Shown: one piece after another, positions 23,738 through 31,961 of the stretch | Numbering within the stretch: position 1 is the stretch's first letter | How the letters are laid out: the number at the start of each line of letters is the position of its first letter | Origin: Candidatus Hinthialibacter antarcticus | GTDB taxonomy: Bacteria; Hinthialibacterota; Hinthialibacteria; Hinthialibacterales; Hinthialibacteraceae | Length of the DNA: 64,000 nucleotides | Assembly (NCBI GenBank): GCA_030765645.1 | Contig: JAVCCE010000011.1 | Span: 1-64,000, forward strand | Direction: 5' to 3' | Translations under genes and position numbers: made by a program | Notes under the pieces: generated by a model | Told to the model about the DNA's origin: nothing | What the model saw: the letters and a program-made list of their open reading frames with translations, nothing else | Databases searched by the model: none

Positions 23738-26257
23738 ATGAAACTCAAATATGGAATTTTATTCGCTATTGTAGCACTCGTTTCATACACATCATTCGCT
23801 CAAGTTGGCATCTTCGATACCAGCGAAGATATCGGCGATGCTGATGCTGTGCTTGGGCTGGCTGAGTTTGATAATGGCGTCTATTCGCTTGACGCCCTAA
23901 CCAGCGAAATGAATGAAATTGCCCCCGATAATTTTCACTTTGCCTATAGTGAACTCTCTGGCAGTTTTTCCATTCAAGCCGACCCCGACGTCATTGGCGG
24001 TAGAGGCGGCGTCATGGTCCGTAACGGAAATGGCGACAGCGATGCGCACGCATCACTCTTGATGACCAACGATTTTAATATTTGGCCTCATATCCGCACG
24101 ATTGACGGCGGCGGTTCGACATTTGACGGCGACCTTGAAGACGATACCACAGTGACAGTCCGTCTACTTCGAGCGGGCGACAGTGTTCACTTTTACCGGG
24201 TGAACTCTGACGGCAGCGAAGAGTTAATTCAAAGCGAAGTCATCCAGTTCACTAAAGACTCTGTGCTGGCTGGTTTAGCGGTTAGCGACAATGGCGCGCT
24301 CGCAGATTTCTCGAATGTTTCAATTGATGAACTGCCGTTAGACGTACACCGCACATTTCCGACATCTGATTACGCACCTGGCATGAGCATGACCGGCGTT
24401 TCGGTCAAAGCCAGTGTCCGCGCCGGTTCAACAGCGGACGGAACGGTCCAGGAAATCGCTCCCGTCGGTTCCATTGTAAGCAATGTTCAAGCCTCCGCCG
24501 GTGAAGTCGCGACTGAAGATAATGTAATGACATGGACATTATCCGGCCTGTCAGGCGACGCGACTCTTACCTATGACATCGTATTTCCAAACCGCTCCGT
24601 TGTGGCGTTTCCTGGAACCTTTATTGGTACGGGCATCCCCGTTGATAGTTTCATCGGCGGCGTATCGGTATTGCCGGCAGGCACACCGCAGTTTGGCGGC
24701 GTAACAGATCCAATCGACGTCAATCCATTTTTCACAACCGTCTTACAACTTGAAGATGGTACGCCAGGAACTTTATCAGGCGGTGAATTAGGGGAAGCCG
24801 ATCCTGGTGGATTTGGCTTAGGCGTAGACCCGCGCACATCTGGTATTACCGTAATTGACACTGACGGCACCGTCAATCATGTCGTTTCGCTGCCAATTAA
24901 TATTCAACAAGCAGGAACGTATTATTTATTTGGACTCGTTCGCGGCGAAGACGGTAACAGCGATTCGTGGCACTTTGAAATGGATGCGCTTCCAAGCGGC
25001 GCCGACGACAGCCGATGGAACATAACAAACAGCAAAACCTGGGGCGCCGACTGGGTTGAGCAAGAAGACCCCAACAATGATCCTCGCCCGTTCGAACTCA
25101 CGGCTGGAATGCATACCATTTATCTGGCGAACCGGGAAGACGGCGCCAGCATTGACTGGTTAACAGTCACGACGAATCCGAATATTGATATCGCGAATTT
25201 CGACGCCTTTACCCGCATCTCTCAAATTTCCGGCAGAAGTATCGCCGATGGATTTCTCGCGCGTGGCGAAAACGAAACCACTGTCGAAATTTCAATCATA
25301 TACCGCGACTTCACATCTTCAGTTGTGATTACAGAAACGCCTCCCACTGGATTCACAGCGTCTAACATAAATGCCAACGGCGGCGCAGCAACTTTAAATG
25401 CAGATGGAAGCATCTCTTGGGATATTTCAGGAGTGACATCACAAGAATTAACTTTGTCTTACACTCTCACGGCTCCTTCCAATGAAGGAAACACATTCAA
25501 GACCGCAATCATCACGGGCACACTAAACATTGAAGGCGAAGAACCCATCGAACTGAGCGGAAACGATTCAATCGTACTAGAAGGCAACGCGGTTGCTTCA
25601 TCGGGTAAGACGGTCTATCACATGATTAACGTCGAGGCCGAAGAATTAGCCGACCTGATCATGGATTCACACTTAAGAAACCAATTTGGCTTAGAGATAA
25701 TTCAAATTGATGACGGCGACACGCCCGGGTTTGAACGTCCAGCAGATTTATCCGGCGTCGACATGGCCATCGTGAGCGGCTCAGTCGGATCAGGAAACAT
25801 TGGCGGGATGAACTACCATGTTAATGCGCCGGAACCTCTCATAACGTACGAGAGTTTCTTGTATGACGATTTTTCATTCTCCCCCGTCTTTGATTTTACG
25901 ACGAGTACAGATTTAGAAATCATCGACAATGGCCACCCCATCACAGAGGGGCTTGATTTAGGTCTCTTAACAGTATTTCGCGAAGAAGGCGGCATCGCCT
26001 GGTCGAACCCGCCTGAAGGCGTTCGCATTCTCGCCACTCCTCCGGGCGAACCCAATAACGCTGCGGTATGGGTCATTGAGGCGGGCAGCACGGTAGACGG
26101 CAACACCATCCCGGGAATTCGCTTGGGACTGTGGAGCGGTACGTTTACAAATATGAGCAACCAGGGCATCGACTTGATGAACCGCATCATTGCGTATTCG
26201 TTGGGTGAAGACGCCCCTGAACCGCCCACTGCGATCAATGACTATATGCTCTATTGA
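23738..26257 (+). CDS. Large secreted multidomain protein with C-terminal AINDYMLY tail
   Basis: 839 residues with a signal peptide (MKLKYGILFAIVALVSYTSFAQ). Regions: an N-terminal concanavalin/DUF1349-like segment ending in VLAGLAVSDNGALADFSNVS; DUF11-like beta repeats at ~200-290 and ~510-610 (VITETPPTGFTASNINANGG); a carbohydrate-binding-like beta sandwich at ~340-485 (AGTYYLFGLVRGEDGNSDSW); and a ThuA/glutamine-amidotransferase-like or Rossmann-like segment at ~625-820. It ends in the shared tail AINDYMLY. The duplicated repeat also occurs in the protein at 62757-64000. AAGGGAG precedes the start. Likely a cell-surface or released glycan-interacting protein. Confidence 0.8.
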   Translation: MKLKYGILFAIVALVSYTSFAQVGIFDTSEDIGDADAVLGLAEFDNGVYSLDALTSEMNEIAPDNFHFAYSELSGSFSIQADPDVIGGRGGVMVRNGNGDSDAHASLLMTNDFNIWPHIRTIDGGGSTFDGDLEDDTTVTVRLLRAGDSVHFYRVNSDGSEELIQSEVIQFTKDSVLAGLAVSDNGALADFSNVSIDELPLDVHRTFPTSDYAPGMSMTGVSVKASVRAGSTADGTVQEIAPVGSIVSNVQASAGEVATEDNVMTWTLSGLSGDATLTYDIVFPNRSVVAFPGTFIGTGIPVDSFIGGVSVLPAGTPQFGGVTDPIDVNPFFTTVLQLEDGTPGTLSGGELGEADPGGFGLGVDPRTSGITVIDTDGTVNHVVSLPINIQQAGTYYLFGLVRGEDGNSDSWHFEMDALPSGADDSRWNITNSKTWGADWVEQEDPNNDPRPFELTAGMHTIYLANREDGASIDWLTVTTNPNIDIANFDAFTRISQISGRSIADGFLARGENETTVEISIIYRDFTSSVVITETPPTGFTASNINANGGAATLNADGSISWDISGVTSQELTLSYTLTAPSNEGNTFKTAIITGTLNIEGEEPIELSGNDSIVLEGNAVASSGKTVYHMINVEAEELADLIMDSHLRNQFGLEIIQIDDGDTPGFERPADLSGVDMAIVSGSVGSGNIGGMNYHVNAPEPLITYESFLYDDFSFSPVFDFTTSTDLEIIDNGHPITEGLDLGLLTVFREEGGIAWSNPPEGVRILATPPGEPNNAAVWVIEAGSTVDGNTIPGIRLGLWSGTFTNMSNQGIDLMNRIIAYSLGEDAPEPPTAINDYMLY

Positions 26258-26284: not shown

Positions 26285-26316
26285 AAACGGGGCCGCATAA
26301 CGCGGCCCCGTTTGTT
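26285..26316. terminator. Bidirectional terminator between convergent genes
   Basis: AAACGGGGCCGC and GCGGCCCCGTTT form a perfect 12-bp stem with a short loop. The A and T flanks serve both the plus-strand gene ending at 26257 and the minus-strand gene ending at 26346. Confidence 0.9.
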
Positions 26317-26345: not shown

Positions 26346-27623
26346 TTAGTGTAAATCCCAGTTATCGACGACGGAGCCTACTTTTTGCCGAAGTACAATA
26401 CTTCGATTTCCTTCATCATCACGCTCGATCCATACAACTGAGATTTGCCCAAAACCACTTGCCATCGGCTGAACGCCAATCGTCGGCGTACGGGCGTCAT
26501 CAAAGTCGCCGCTCAGGTATATACGTTCAGAAACTTCAAATGTATTCGGATCAACAACGGCAAACACCACCTGAAAGATGCCGCCGAGGTCTTCCTGCCA
26601 AACCGCGTACAACTGATCGCCTGCATTGACGACGCTCAGTTGCGACGCGCTCAGCGAACCGTCGTCAATCATTGCAGCGTCTGACCATGCGCCTGATGTT
26701 GAACGCTTCATCAAATACACATGACTCAGGCCGTCTACCCGCTGAGAAAACGCCAGGAAAATTTCGCCCTGTTCATTGGCAATGATACGCGGCGGGTCAA
26801 AAAATGTGGACGCGTCTTCGGTGATGGCTTCGACTTCTCCCAGCGACCCATCGGCATTCACCATACGGCCCTGCAAGCGAAGATAACTCTGAAAATTATC
26901 TTGAACGCCCCATACAACATAGGCGCCGTCAAGCATCCCCGCAACATCAGGCATCCAATGTGAAGTCAAATCGCCTCCCAAGTCTTCACCCGTAATACGG
27001 AAAGGCTCGATTCCCCCAACGTCGCTGAATTCTCCGTTGCTGTTTGAACGGACATAGATATTCGAATTGTTGCCATCTAACGAAAAATCATACCACGCAG
27101 CATAGGTTATTGCGTTTGGAGAAATCGAAATCGTCGGCGTATATCCATTGTCACCGGAATGCCCTGCACTGGTATTGCTGATGCGTACATCCGAATCGGA
27201 AAATGATCCATCCAAAGGCATCCGGTCAAGATAAATTTCGATGTTGTCTATGAAGTTTCCCGCTGCGGTTGCATTTCGGTAGTCCTGCCAAATCACTGTA
27301 ACATCGCCGCCTGGAGCCACAACCATGAAAGGATGTTTTCCACCGAATGTCTCGTTATCAACGCGAACTGGCGTCTCAATTTGTTCTTGCAAAAATGAGA
27401 CATACATAATTTGGTCGCCGGGCATATCACCATCAGGAAGCGAGTATGTAAGATGCACTCGTCCCTGTTGATCAACGCCCAATGCGCCGCGTGGATTACG
27501 TGCAAATTCCAACGCTTTTGTGGATTCAACCAGAGTAAGAGGCGTATCAAACTCAACCGCCGTCACAGTCAAACTAAAAAGCGATATCGTAGAAAATGCG
27601 ATTAGGCTGCTTATATATTTCAT
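26346..27623 (-). CDS. Secreted seven-repeat beta-propeller-like protein under B12 riboswitch control
   Basis: 425 residues with a signal peptide (MKYISSLIAFSTISLFSLTVTA). The mature chain contains seven regularly spaced strands of the 'xVxW/xLxF' type: GRVHLTYS, GDVTVIWQDYR, NAITYAAWYDF, GAYVVWGVQD, GEIFLAFSQR, DQLYAVWQED, QISVVWIERD. This is the pattern of a seven-bladed sialidase-like/BNR propeller. It ends in SVVDNWDLH, the shared C-terminal tail. It starts 11 nt after the DUF4430-like gene and so belongs to the same cobalamin-riboswitch operon. BtuG, the Bacteroides surface B12 binder, is also a seven-bladed propeller, so a corrinoid-binding role is a reasonable inference, not shown. Confidence 0.78.
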   Translation of the reverse strand: MKYISSLIAFSTISLFSLTVTAVEFDTPLTLVESTKALEFARNPRGALGVDQQGRVHLTYSLPDGDMPGDQIMYVSFLQEQIETPVRVDNETFGGKHPFMVVAPGGDVTVIWQDYRNATAAGNFIDNIEIYLDRMPLDGSFSDSDVRISNTSAGHSGDNGYTPTISISPNAITYAAWYDFSLDGNNSNIYVRSNSNGEFSDVGGIEPFRITGEDLGGDLTSHWMPDVAGMLDGAYVVWGVQDNFQSYLRLQGRMVNADGSLGEVEAITEDASTFFDPPRIIANEQGEIFLAFSQRVDGLSHVYLMKRSTSGAWSDAAMIDDGSLSASQLSVVNAGDQLYAVWQEDLGGIFQVVFAVVDPNTFEVSERIYLSGDFDDARTPTIGVQPMASGFGQISVVWIERDDEGNRSIVLRQKVGSVVDNWDLH

Positions 27624-27634
27624 CGAATTCGTTC

Positions 27635-28477
27635 CTATCGTAACAACGACCAGCCAGCGACCGATGATTGTGAATTGAACACTTCTTCATGAGTAATCGG
27701 CTGCGGGCTGTCGCCCCATTGACCGAACAGCCAACCTTGAACCTGCCCGCCGTAGACGAGGCGATCTCCGACGCCGACCGCTGATGAAACCCACTCATCG
27801 TTCGCGTTCAGATCATGCAACGCCCACGTCGGATCGCTTGCGGAAAAGTCGCCGAAGCAATTGTCGGACGGATGCCCTTCTCCATCAATCGCGCAAACCG
27901 CAGAGCCAAATGAGTAATGCGCCGCGACTAAGTCCAACCCGCTTTGCTGCAAGAGTTGAAAGCCGGTCAGCGTCTCGCCGTAGAAGTCCACCACGCGAAC
28001 TGTACGCGAACCATCAAGGTGATTGATGACGAGGCCCGCCTGGTTTTCGTATTCACATAACGCCTCGAACGACGACTCCGGCAGTTCCACTTCGCCCCAG
28101 GCGCCAAAAGCGAACCCAAAGATCGAGCCGTCTTGCGCCGTCGCGCTTGAAATGCCCACCGGAGCCGAAACCCAAGCGCCGTCTTCACTCACGAAGAAGT
28201 TCCAGAACCATCCATCAGGATGCGCGTCGCAATTCGCCGCGCCGTCGTCATGCAGATAACAAACGTATGATCCAAATTCGGAACTCTGCGTGGCTAACTG
28301 AAATCCCGAACGCTCCAACAGGTCTTCCACCGTGAGGAACGCGTCTTCAAACTCAACGCAACGCGAGATCGTTTCACCGGTGGAATTTTGAATCAGAATT
28401 CCGGCGCGGTTCTGCGCCCAGCTATTTACTGCGGCGAACAACAAAATGCTCAATGCCAATACTGATACGACTTTCAT
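27635..28477 (-). CDS. Secreted transcobalamin-like (DUF4430-type) two-domain protein
   Basis: 280 residues from ATG 28477 (AAAGGGAA upstream) with a signal peptide (MKVVSVLALSILLFAAVNSWA). Two tandem repeats of ~115 residues follow. Each has a valine-rich start, an LTVEDLLERSG or LTGFQLLQQSG helix, a [Y/H]xxxFGS[Y/A]VC segment, a Cys-x-n-Cys pair around HPSDN or AHPDG, a Trp-containing strand, and a final FGQWG/FGAWG. This is the order seen in DUF4430 / transcobalamin C-terminal domains. It ends in SVAGWSLLR, a variant of the shared tail. A cobalamin riboswitch and terminator precede it, supporting a B12-related role. Confidence 0.75.
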   Translation of the reverse strand: MKVVSVLALSILLFAAVNSWAQNRAGILIQNSTGETISRCVEFEDAFLTVEDLLERSGFQLATQSSEFGSYVCYLHDDGAANCDAHPDGWFWNFFVSEDGAWVSAPVGISSATAQDGSIFGFAFGAWGEVELPESSFEALCEYENQAGLVINHLDGSRTVRVVDFYGETLTGFQLLQQSGLDLVAAHYSFGSAVCAIDGEGHPSDNCFGDFSASDPTWALHDLNANDEWVSSAVGVGDRLVYGGQVQGWLFGQWGDSPQPITHEEVFNSQSSVAGWSLLR

Positions 28478-28544
28478 TTGATTCCCTTTCTTTTTGCCGC
28501 AGGAAACAAAAGTGAGGTTCAAGCGGAAATCGCGCAGGCAGGAC

Positions 28545-28582
28545 GCAAAAACGCCCGGCCTCTTCTCAGAAACCGGGCGTGC
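28545..28582 (-). terminator. Riboswitch-associated terminator
   Basis: On the minus strand ACGCCCGG and CCGGGCGT pair over a ~14-nt loop and are followed by TTTTTGC. It lies between the cobalamin aptamer and the DUF4430-like start codon, the position expected of an expression platform acting by transcription termination. Confidence 0.8.
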
Positions 28583-28619
28583 GCGATTAAATTCCGCGTG
28601 CCACTCTCTCTGTCCCCGA

Positions 28620-28815
28620 AGAGGTGACATCGCCTATCGGGCCGGTCTCCTGGCTTCCGAAGATGTCGCGCTTCGCCTTCTCATCCGAACGCCGGACAAT
28701 GGCAATTGAAGCGCTCTGCTTCGGTTACAGTGGCGGGACCGCGCCGGACTTTCACCGGCTTCCCGTTTCAGCCGCGACATGCGGCCACCCAATAGGGAGA
28801 TGATGGAGGTACCTT
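28620..28815 (-). ncRNA. Cobalamin (B12) riboswitch
   Basis: Read on the minus strand, the segment has the diagnostic order of the class: GGTG...GGGAAGCCGGTGAAAGTCCG, GCGGTCCCGCCACTGTAACC, then the B12 box AGCCAGGAGACCGGCC (28641-28656). These blocks are near-exact to the known aptamer core. It is followed by a terminator hairpin, then a secreted-protein operon. In high B12 the downstream genes should be off. Confidence 0.95.
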
Positions 28816-28854: not shown

Positions 28855-29088
28855 AGGTTCATCCGGTAAGTGAGTACCTACATTGATGGATGGTCATGTT
28901 TTTGATTATGAAAACGTATCCCGGCGTATCAATAATTGACAAACCAATTCAGGCATGGGTGCGACTCGGGGAGCGCCTGTGCATAAGGGCCTGAAAGCCC
29001 GCACTGAAGCGAGCAGAGGTGTACCCATGCCACATGCAGCGAAATTTCAATCAATGTATAAAAAAGCATCCAATTAACGGAAGAACCT
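28855..29088 (+). mobile_element. MITE-like hairpin repeat, full-length copy D
   Basis: A 234-bp element with terminal inverted repeats AGGTTCATCCG (28855-28865) and CGGAAGAACCT (29078-29088), matching at 10 of 11 positions. It carries the TAAGTGAGTAC / TTGATGGATGGTCAT left block shared with copy B, the core hairpin (28962-29031, arms GGCATGGGT/ACCCATGCC) and the CAGCGAAA right block shared with copies A and B. There is no coding capacity. Both sides are A-runs, so a target duplication cannot be judged. Confidence 0.8.
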
Positions 29089-29148: not shown

Positions 29149-29787
29149 TTAGCAACCGCCGCTATATTGCTTAATCGAACCAGGCAACAACCCGACCGAG
29201 AAGCAGCCGCGTTGAAATTCACCGCCAATTCGCCAGCTGTCGCCATTGGAGAGCAAGCCGTTGGAGACATCAAACGGACGAATATGAACGCCGAATGGAA
29301 ACGAGTCGTGTGCGCCAATATCGTCATCTGAATCAGGGCCGAGTCCGTTCAAACTCCAAGCCTGAACGCACTGAGGCGAATCGGGACAACCATTATCAGC
29401 GCCGGTGCCCATTTCATAATCAGGCCGACCGTTGCTTGCATACGCATTGGTGTCGCCGAAACCCAATGTCGCAGCGAGGTCTCTGTTGGCAAACACTTGT
29501 TGGGGTACGCTTGATAAATAAGAAATTGGCGACGTCAAACTGAAGAGACCATGCTCATGGCCGCCTGCATAATTATCCAAATCATGGTCGTTTGGGTACG
29601 AATTATTATCCATCCGGTACATTTCGAGCGCATCAGAAATGGTTTTCATTTGCGATGTTTCACGGGCGAGTTTGGCGCGCAACTGCGCGTTCAAAAAGTT
29701 GGGCACCGCAATCGCAGCCAAAATTCCAATAATCGCGACAACAATTAATAACTCAATCAATGTAAAAGCGTTCTTTGTGCGGCGCAT
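29149..29787 (-). CDS. Prepilin-type pseudopilin (type II secretion/GspG-like)
   Basis: 212 residues with a canonical class III signal: RRTKNAFTLIELLIVVAIIG, cleavage before Phe, Glu at +5, then a hydrophobic helix. Next comes the GspG-like TISDALEMYRMDNNSYPN segment. The C-terminal part is lineage-specific, with SNGLLSNGDSWRIGGEFQRG. It is probably processed by prepilin peptidase and incorporated in a pseudopilus or pilus. No gsp/pil assembly genes are adjacent. GAGGTGA precedes the start. Confidence 0.88.
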   Translation of the reverse strand: MRRTKNAFTLIELLIVVAIIGILAAIAVPNFLNAQLRAKLARETSQMKTISDALEMYRMDNNSYPNDHDLDNYAGGHEHGLFSLTSPISYLSSVPQQVFANRDLAATLGFGDTNAYASNGRPDYEMGTGADNGCPDSPQCVQAWSLNGLGPDSDDDIGAHDSFPFGVHIRPFDVSNGLLSNGDSWRIGGEFQRGCFSVGLLPGSIKQYSGGC

Positions 29788-30009: not shown

Positions 30010-31581
30010 TTAGAACAGTTCCCAATTCGGGACTGACGTTGATGTATCCGCAGTAACGCGAACATTATCAATCGCCCAGAAACCTTCCATGTCATCATTG
30101 CCATTGGGGAAGTCAGGCGCGGCTTCGTCTGTTGGGTCAGATGCCGATGCAAAGAAACGGAAGACAACATTGCTGCTGCCCGCCGCTTGAGGAACTTCCA
30201 GATAGTGGTGATCGAAGAACGGCGCTTCACCATAGTTCATGAGGGCGCCCAGATAATCGAAAATATCTTCAAAATCGCCGCCGTCAACGCTAACTTGCAC
30301 TTTGTATGACTTTGCGCCAGTAGTGCCAGCCAAAAATTCAGAGTCAAAATCGATGTAAGCTGCAACTGCGTTGCTCAAGTCGAGTGACGGAGTATCTAAA
30401 GCAGCAGTTTCAGGTTCGGAACCATCAGGCGTTCCAAACGGTCCTTCTTGATACAGAGCGTAACCCTGGCCCGCTAACATGAGCAACCAACCACCGTCGG
30501 TCATGCCCTTGGGGTTGAAATCGGCGTCCGGGGTTTCCAAATCGATGACAACGTCAAACGATTCGGCTTGTTTCAACAGGTCAATAAAGACAGGTACGCC
30601 ATTGATCAGTTTGAAGGGTTCGCCTGGCAATTCAGGGTCTTCGATCCCTTTTGTATCCCATACGATGGGAGGAATGCCGTAGTAATCGTTCAATGGATCA
30701 GCCGAAACGGTATTCAGGTTTTCGTTGTTCCATGCGGCTGGAATTCCGCCTTCGAAATCTTCAGTCAGAATTTCAACGGAACCTGTCGGAGGAGGCGTGT
30801 TATCGATAACAACATTATCAACTGCATACCACCATGCGTCCGCTGTTTCATGCCAACCAAGGCGAATACGAACATCCGCCTGATTTTCAACGGAAGCAGG
30901 CAATGGAACATGCCAACGACCGTGAATCCCCGCAAAGGTTTTCAACGAAGCGGGATTGTTCGGGTCCGGCCCAATGCTAGGCCAGCCGTCAATCAATGCC
31001 GAACCCGTCGGGTTGCCATTCACATCGGTTGGGGTGTTGAACGCATCGATTACGCGTTCAGGTTCAACGGCGATCCAGGCGTGTTGCCAGGTTGCGCCCC
31101 CGTCGGTTGACACATCAAGAAAAGCAAACGCTTCACCATTGTTGTTGATGTCGATCGCCGCGTCCGCATGGAACCAGACAGTGCCGCTGCCGCCGACTGT
31201 GCTGAAACTGGGCGAAAGCGCGGAGACTTGAGCGCCCGAGCCAATATCATCAGAGCCGCCAGCTTTGTCTGAGTCAGAGAACAAGAACGGGCTATTGGTC
31301 GGCAGACCATTCGCCATGGGCGGATACTCGACGCCGGTGTCTGCACTCGGTGCAGGACCAGCAGGCCAGATGTCTGCGGTCGGTTCTGCGACGCCAAAAT
31401 CAACGCCTGTTTCTGTAACAAACTCGTTGCTTGTGAATTCCCAACCACGTGATTCAGCGCCAGCCGTACCGCCCGTGTTAAAATCTTCTTCTACAAAGAC
31501 CTGGGCCTGGCTGGTGTTAACCATAGCGCACAACGCAAAAGCTGTTGCAGCGACCGTAGTAAAACGAAAAACTTTACGCAT
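30010..31581 (-). CDS. Secreted protein with MAM/jelly-roll-like domains and SVPNWELF tail
   Basis: 523 residues from ATG 31581, which has a strong GGAGG five bases upstream. Signal peptide MRKVFRFTTVAATAFALCAMV...SQA. Two related beta-sandwich units follow: EEDFNTGGTAG...GWEF... and EDFEGGIPAAWNNENL..., each ending with a 'VDNVVI' or 'IDNVRV' strand, and strands such as AFLDVSTDGGATWQHAW and SYKVQVSVDGGDFEDI. This resembles MAM-like or choice-of-anchor domains. It ends in SVPNWELF, the shared tail. Monocistronic. Confidence 0.8.
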   Translation of the reverse strand: MRKVFRFTTVAATAFALCAMVNTSQAQVFVEEDFNTGGTAGAESRGWEFTSNEFVTETGVDFGVAEPTADIWPAGPAPSADTGVEYPPMANGLPTNSPFLFSDSDKAGGSDDIGSGAQVSALSPSFSTVGGSGTVWFHADAAIDINNNGEAFAFLDVSTDGGATWQHAWIAVEPERVIDAFNTPTDVNGNPTGSALIDGWPSIGPDPNNPASLKTFAGIHGRWHVPLPASVENQADVRIRLGWHETADAWWYAVDNVVIDNTPPPTGSVEILTEDFEGGIPAAWNNENLNTVSADPLNDYYGIPPIVWDTKGIEDPELPGEPFKLINGVPVFIDLLKQAESFDVVIDLETPDADFNPKGMTDGGWLLMLAGQGYALYQEGPFGTPDGSEPETAALDTPSLDLSNAVAAYIDFDSEFLAGTTGAKSYKVQVSVDGGDFEDIFDYLGALMNYGEAPFFDHHYLEVPQAAGSSNVVFRFFASASDPTDEAAPDFPNGNDDMEGFWAIDNVRVTADTSTSVPNWELF

Positions 31582-31961
31582 ACTGACCTCCAAAACCTAT
31601 TATTTTTTTGATGTATTAGCAAAGATGATGACGCAATATTTTTGAATCATGAAAACAATATAGGAAAAACAATAAAAATGAATACATAAAAATCAGATTA
31701 ACGAAGAACTAACAACCTATATAACAAAACATTTACTCTGAATAACTCATCTAGTTTTATATAAGAAAAATAATCCCCTTGCTCTTTCGCAACAAAAAAA
31801 CATACATAACAATGCCTTTTTCTAAAAAAAGGCAAATTACTTCTAATAATTGTGAATCAACAAAGATGAAAAAAACGAGGTGTATAAGTAACGGCTACTT
31901 AGTAAAACCACTCTAACGGAATCCTAACAAACTACAAAAATAAATGTTTATAAAATGTCGT
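31582..31961. other. AT-rich intergenic region
   Basis: Very A/T-rich spacer between two minus-strand genes. It contains a small perfect hairpin GCCTTTTT...AAAAAGGC (31814-31833). I see no gene, repeat copy or clear promoter boxes. Confidence 0.5.

Follow-up and report, generated by a model that had tools for sequence, protein, structure and literature searches.

In the usual view, B12 crosses the outer membrane of Gram-negative bacteria only with the help of BtuB and TonB. Extracellular carriage of corrinoids is the business of transcobalamin, intrinsic factor and haptocorrin, a family in which the whole protein combines an N-terminal alpha6/alpha6 barrel with one beta domain behind it. Bacteroides is known to encode, within riboswitch loci, additional surface proteins that bind B12, namely BtuG, BtuH and BtuJ (PMC6143338, PMC8941943, PMC12751083). 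BtuG2 (structure 3DSM) folds as a propeller with seven blades (PMC6143338, PMC10404256), while BtuH and BtuJ are DUF4465 lipoproteins, the latter an augmented beta-jelly-roll (PMC8941943, PMC12751083). Since surface B12 binders in riboswitch loci have been described from Bacteroides, the general kind of system considered here is already known; what is new is a tandem of transcobalamin-beta domains controlled by a cobalamin riboswitch, a partner propeller of the BNR type and, above all, a recurrent B12-regulated pseudopilin, which may be categorically new.

The locus belongs to Candidatus Hinthialibacter antarcticus, a member of Candidatus Hinthialibacterota, a phylum whose records are often filed as Omnitrophota. 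The window referred to below is the whole stretch of 64,000 nucleotides that was analysed. Its relevant features, with the two exported proteins named P1 and P2, are as follows:

26288-26310, no strand assigned: GC-rich hairpin CGGGGCCGCATAACGCGGCCCCG in the gap between the convergent genes, read from the sequence by eye
26346-27623, minus strand: P2, exported protein of 425 aa, ATG at 27623, 11 nt after P1
27635-28477, minus strand: P1, exported protein of 280 aa, ATG at 28477, stop ending at 27635
28580-28551, minus strand: intrinsic terminator in the gap between aptamer and P1 (expression platform), a 13-pair stem followed by a T-run
28623-28807, minus strand: cobalamin riboswitch aptamer (RF00174), Rfam 116.3 bits, E 1.7e-28, full model 1-189
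28905-28932, minus strand: promoter-like TTGATA-16-CATAAT, 5' of the riboswitch, 10/12 matches in a consensus scan (weak evidence)

The riboswitch leader and a transcobalamin-like protein

The aptamer exceeds the RF00174 gathering score (31.5 bits) over its whole length. In the terminator behind it, the stem ACGCCCGGTTTCTGAGAAGAGGCCGGGCGT is followed by the T-run; the 145-nt leader folds more stably than shuffled sequences (z = -2.57) and a GC hairpin with a T-run occupies the equivalent position in all nine homologous operon leaders. These features point to an expression platform 5' of P1, at which termination would be switched by the ligand. The next gene upstream (29149-29787) encodes an ordinary pseudopilin and has a terminator of its own at 29123-29092, and so the riboswitch probably heads a separate transcript. 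At the other end of the operon, the hairpin in the convergent gap, which is absent from the calls of the terminator scan, is likely to be a terminator common to both convergent genes. The sequence-only reading of this locus had placed a cobalamin riboswitch with a terminator before two exported proteins, and the covariance model score, the terminator and the two same-strand open reading frames all bear this out.

P1 begins with a hydrophobic signal segment, has no lipobox and is very acidic in its mature form (pI 4.05). It consists of two tandem transcobalamin-C-like beta-grasp domains, at approximately residues 23-130 and 143-257, followed by a short C-terminal tail. Aligned with each other by hhalign, the halves prove homologous (probability 99.4, E 6e-22, 31% identity), which indicates a tandem duplication. 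In a Foldseek search, an AlphaFold model of P1 (pLDDT 84.4, pTM 0.77) has 5no0, the beta domain of human transcobalamin in its apo form, as its top PDB match (E 8.7e-6, probability 1.00), with a TM score of 0.64 by target length and about 21% identity over 113 columns. Second is 5np4, the isolated transcobalamin beta domain with bound cyanocobalamin, and further matches include whole transcobalamins, intrinsic factor and the bacterial protein 3u7z. On this model, each P1 unit is a beta-grasp domain with the fold of the transcobalamin beta domain.

Sequence comparison returned much less. PDB searches with P1 and its profile gave nothing meaningful, a single-sequence scan of the genome contigs with P1 gave no match, and P1 has no Pfam match at E <= 1. 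Weak matches to the NCBIfam SCO2322 family (NF040672) were obtained for six of nine P1 homologues (best E 6.7e-7), P1 itself scoring 21.5 bits against a family cut-off of 85 bits. The proposal that P1 comprises two tandem units in DUF4430/transcobalamin-C order must consequently be divided: the tandem halves stand, and the transcobalamin-C reading is right at the level of fold because it is there that the top structural matches of the model lie, but DUF4430 drops out, there being no Pfam match to it in P1 or, at E <= 0.1, in any of the nine homologues. P1 resembles SCO2322 and DUF4430-type proteins such as 3u7z through the weak sequence match to the former and the fold match to 3u7z, and differs in falling below the family cut-off and in its tandem architecture. 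With the transcobalamins it shares the fold of each unit and the logic of an extracellular corrinoid carrier; however, it is bacterial and controlled by a cobalamin riboswitch, its model lacks the barrel, and its beta units are repeated in tandem, twice here and three times in the Sumerlaeota operon copy L137.

A propeller of the BNR type

P2 likewise carries an N-terminal hydrophobic signal segment, has no lipobox and is very acidic once mature (pI 4.17). Its AlphaFold model is an all-beta propeller (pLDDT 84.6, pTM 0.86) that matches propeller enzymes over its full length, and seven repeats can be counted by eye, in keeping with the earlier description of seven propeller-type repeats. The closest folds among the 50 Foldseek matches listed are BNR-type PL27 lyases, GH145 glycosidases and sialidases. 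P2 itself has no Pfam match, while BNR_4 (PF15892) is matched by eight of 11 P2 homologues (best E 2.6e-7).

Given a riboswitch-linked, exported, seven-bladed propeller with a presumed role in corrinoid capture for BtuFCD, one of the closest known systems is the Bacteroides BtuG-BtuB system (PMC6143338, PMC10404256). The sequence-only reading had drawn this comparison, but among the comparisons made the likeness is limited to blade number. PDB sequence searches with P2 and its profile returned nothing meaningful, 3DSM was not recovered by them, and it is also outside the best 50 fold matches; homology with BtuG is not supported by either. Unlike BtuG, P2 is a BNR-type propeller without a lipobox and has no BtuB partner in its operon. 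BtuH and BtuJ are comparable as additional corrinoid-binding surface proteins encoded in B12-riboswitch loci, but P1 is a beta-grasp protein, P2 is a propeller and neither has the lipobox of a lipoprotein (PMC8941943, PMC12751083).

The identity of the best fold matches of P2 raises the question of whether it handles carbohydrate. Corrinoid would then be bound by P1 alone, and P2 would bind or cleave carbohydrate, either holding P1 on extracellular polysaccharide or releasing corrinoid from a matrix. The Foldseek and BNR_4 matches would suit such a role, as would a histidine, H97 in the motif GGxHP, that is invariant in an 11-row alignment. Yet the Sumerlaeota operon copy L137 has glutamine at this position (GGRQP), a weak argument against a kept lyase activity which implies that an enzymatic role has not been maintained throughout, and in both phyla P2 is encoded downstream of cobalamin riboswitches, including at loci that have no P1. 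On balance we regard this explanation as unlikely.

Conservation of the operon and the probable need for corrinoids

P1 was found in ten of the 14 Hinthialibacterota genomes searched and P2 in 12, and a riboswitch lies 5' of P1 in all ten. The order riboswitch-P1-P2 is seen in seven genomes of two families (G000, G002, G003, G005, G006, G007 and G009). The contig of G008 ends after P1; G004 has riboswitch and P1 together, with P2 at a different riboswitch locus; and in G001 P1, with a broken frame, and P2 are apart, each behind its own riboswitch. The G001 copy of P1 (L024:8280-9121, minus strand) contains in-frame stops and frame changes downstream of an intact riboswitch, reflecting either decay or an assembly error. 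Together with the homologous operons of a second phylum described below, these loci show that the B12 control proposed for the operon is kept across genera and two phyla.

Where a third gene is present, it is either BtuF-like (G007 and G009) or a distinctive pseudopilin (G003 and G005). The G007 copy of the BtuF-like gene matches Peripla_BP_2 (E 9e-23) and its best NCBIfam match is BtuF (E 8e-34, under the model cut-off). The original observation that no BtuB, BtuF or other B12 gene is adjacent therefore holds in the window but not in relatives, where the gene after P2 can be BtuF or a pseudopilin under B12 control. Two more cobalamin riboswitches occur in the window's genome, one heading BtuF-BtuD-BtuC (L005), the other heading a pseudopilin gene and a gene similar to CobT (L004). 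In two genera the gene after riboswitch-btuFDC is glycosyltransferase-like (Glyco_trans_1_2; L005:10381-11535; L058:5470-6627, minus strand).

CbiC is common to both corrin-ring pathways. It was detected in none of the 14 Hinthialibacterota genomes, while control genomes were positive in the same search, and the activation domain of cobalamin-dependent MetH is present in seven of the 14, the window's genome included; these bacteria therefore probably need corrinoids that they cannot make. The proposed part of the operon in corrinoid acquisition gains from this and from the position of BtuF directly 3' of the operon in two relatives.

As had been described, P1 and P2 both carry a shared C-terminal tail and no lipid anchor. 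P1 ends in SSVAGWSLLR and P2 in SVVDNWDLH, and neighbouring proteins end in TSVPNWELF and TAINDYMLY. The tail form S/T-x-V-x-x-W-x-L-Y(E) is found in exported proteins at 23738-26257 (plus strand) and 30010-31593 (minus strand), in P1 and P2, and at many related loci, and was met in Sumerlaeota too. It may serve this lineage as a signal for sorting or anchoring, but being common to many exported proteins of the organism it is uninformative on B12; and without lipid anchors P1 and P2 could be periplasmic or freely secreted. The breadth of the tail and of the exported character would favour another reading, in which P1 and P2 bind no corrinoids and are general surface or adhesion proteins, induced because B12 shortage signals starvation. 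This we consider very improbable in view of the specific transcobalamin-beta fold of P1, the BtuF-like third gene and a cobalamin-riboswitch linkage repeated in two phyla.

The route across the outer membrane may be less conventional. The Plug domain of TonB-dependent receptors was undetected in seven of the 14 genomes, among them G002, G007, G008 and G009, all of which carry the P1 operon. The window's genome encodes two TonB-dependent receptors; both are of the TOL_0244 type and were rejected as BtuB for that reason, though a receptor of this type could carry corrinoids there. The existence of these two receptors, and the several accessory B12-binding surface proteins of Bacteroides (PMC8941943, PMC12751083), might suggest that P1 and P2 are accessory to conventional TonB-dependent uptake, in the manner of BtuG, BtuH and BtuJ around BtuB, with the receptor encoded elsewhere. 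We find this quite unlikely, since both receptors are of another family, no receptor is present at the window locus or was noticed at the homologous riboswitch loci read, and the four genomes named above have the operon and no detectable Plug domain. Secretins and T2SS/T4P ATPases, on the other hand, are found in all 14 genomes.

A B12-linked pseudopilin in two phyla

The pseudopilin that follows P1 and P2 in two Hinthialibacterota genomes belongs to a family whose genes repeatedly lie downstream of cobalamin riboswitches in two phyla and share their operons with P1, P2, BtuC/BtuD, BtuF or CobT. Its members, recovered by an alignment-based profile scan of the genome contigs, combine a prepilin signal with a conserved C-terminal region of their own that contains GCGPAANGYWSGV, LRFAYN and VWLVRCLHLD (alignment A3):

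L004:8341-9039, plus strand: member in the window's genome, behind a riboswitch and before the CobT-like gene
L017, L018, L045, L046, L048, L049, L052, L055, L057, L060, L061: other loci
L075, L076, L110-L149: Sumerlaeota loci

These proteins resemble type IV pilins and T2SS pseudopilins (N_methyl, T2SSG, DUF1559) in the prepilin signal and a T2SSG- or DUF1559-like start, but are set apart by the C-terminal region, the cobalamin riboswitch control and the association with P1, P2 and Btu genes. We found no report of a B12-regulated pseudopilin in the open-licence literature searched. The pseudopilin next to the operon in the window was considered as the B12-linked one and rejected: only the common N-terminus matches (69 bits), its own terminator intervenes, and the true member is that at L004.

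A cobalamin riboswitch precedes the pseudopilin in all 12 aligned Hinthialibacterota loci, although these were partly chosen for their riboswitch. In a less biased test, the best pseudopilin profile match per Sumerlaeota genome was taken and its upstream region then inspected; a same-strand cobalamin riboswitch lies within 4 kb upstream in 28 of 35 genomes, some of the misses being contig ends. Genes between riboswitch and pseudopilin, if any, encode exported propellers or other surface proteins, with P2 homologues in ten loci. The whole module is present in this second phylum in G021, where the order is riboswitch, P1-like gene, P2 and pseudopilin, the P1-like protein having three tandem transcobalamin-type units (E 1.8e-24) and P2 matching at E 2.4e-114; G021 is the only one of 40 Sumerlaeota genomes in which P1 was detected.

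Several other families accompany these riboswitches. In Sumerlaeota, and in a single Hinthialibacterota genome, cobalamin riboswitches also precede a second exported, propeller-like family with an FTSVPxGYE start, at the following loci:

L110:3387-4502, minus strand
L114:2596-3711
L075:1987-3132
L112:3898-5079, minus strand
L050:7417-9525

It has no PDB match and no firm Pfam match, and its Sumerlaeota members, tried by sequence as BtuG, gave no support for that identity. An exported protein that has a GPPHGN-like motif and weakly matches the Leptospira lipoprotein family LIC_13355 lies between riboswitch and pseudopilin at L076:1110-1964, L113, L115, L116 and L119. In Sumerlaeota, genes resembling LarB/LarC (nickel-pincer cofactor synthesis, recognised by eye) directly follow the pseudopilin at L076:2671-4671, L113:3-1981 (minus strand) and L115:5200-7097.

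Taken with the lack of CbiC, the presence of MetH, the receptor absences and the secretins in every Hinthialibacterota genome, these loci lead us to infer a cobalamin-repressed regulon with an outer part (P1, P2 and pseudopilin) and an inner part (BtuFCD). We think it probable that this regulon serves scavenging, corrinoids being captured outside the inner membrane and then passed through BtuF-BtuCD, with the pseudopilin system perhaps replacing BtuB. Low intracellular cobalamin would permit the riboswitch to allow read-through of the terminator, and P1 and P2 would then be made and exported via their Sec signals. P1, judging from its fold and context, would bind corrinoids outside the inner membrane through its two transcobalamin-beta-like domains, while the acidic propeller of P2 may offer a second capture or docking surface. 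The ligand would be handed to BtuF and then to BtuCD, which are encoded behind another riboswitch in the same genome. The least certain step concerns the cobalamin-controlled pseudopilin, which probably helps either to deliver P1 and P2 to the surface or to move the ligand through an outer membrane with no dedicated BtuB. The stronger proposal, that in Hinthialibacterota and Sumerlaeota the pseudopilin, a T4P/T2SS machine with its secretin and the P1/P2 binders together bring B12 across the outer membrane independently of BtuB, is one that we put forward only as a doubtful possibility.

The scavenging of B12 shapes microbial communities, and here whole lineages apparently without corrin-ring synthesis, some of whose members have no detectable TonB-dependent receptor, have retained a set of transcobalamin-like proteins, propellers and pseudopilins under cobalamin switches. 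The beta domain that animals use for B12 carriage thus has a bacterial occurrence tied to riboswitches, and the combination suggests a testable case for a new route of B12 uptake that dispenses with the usual outer-membrane transporter.
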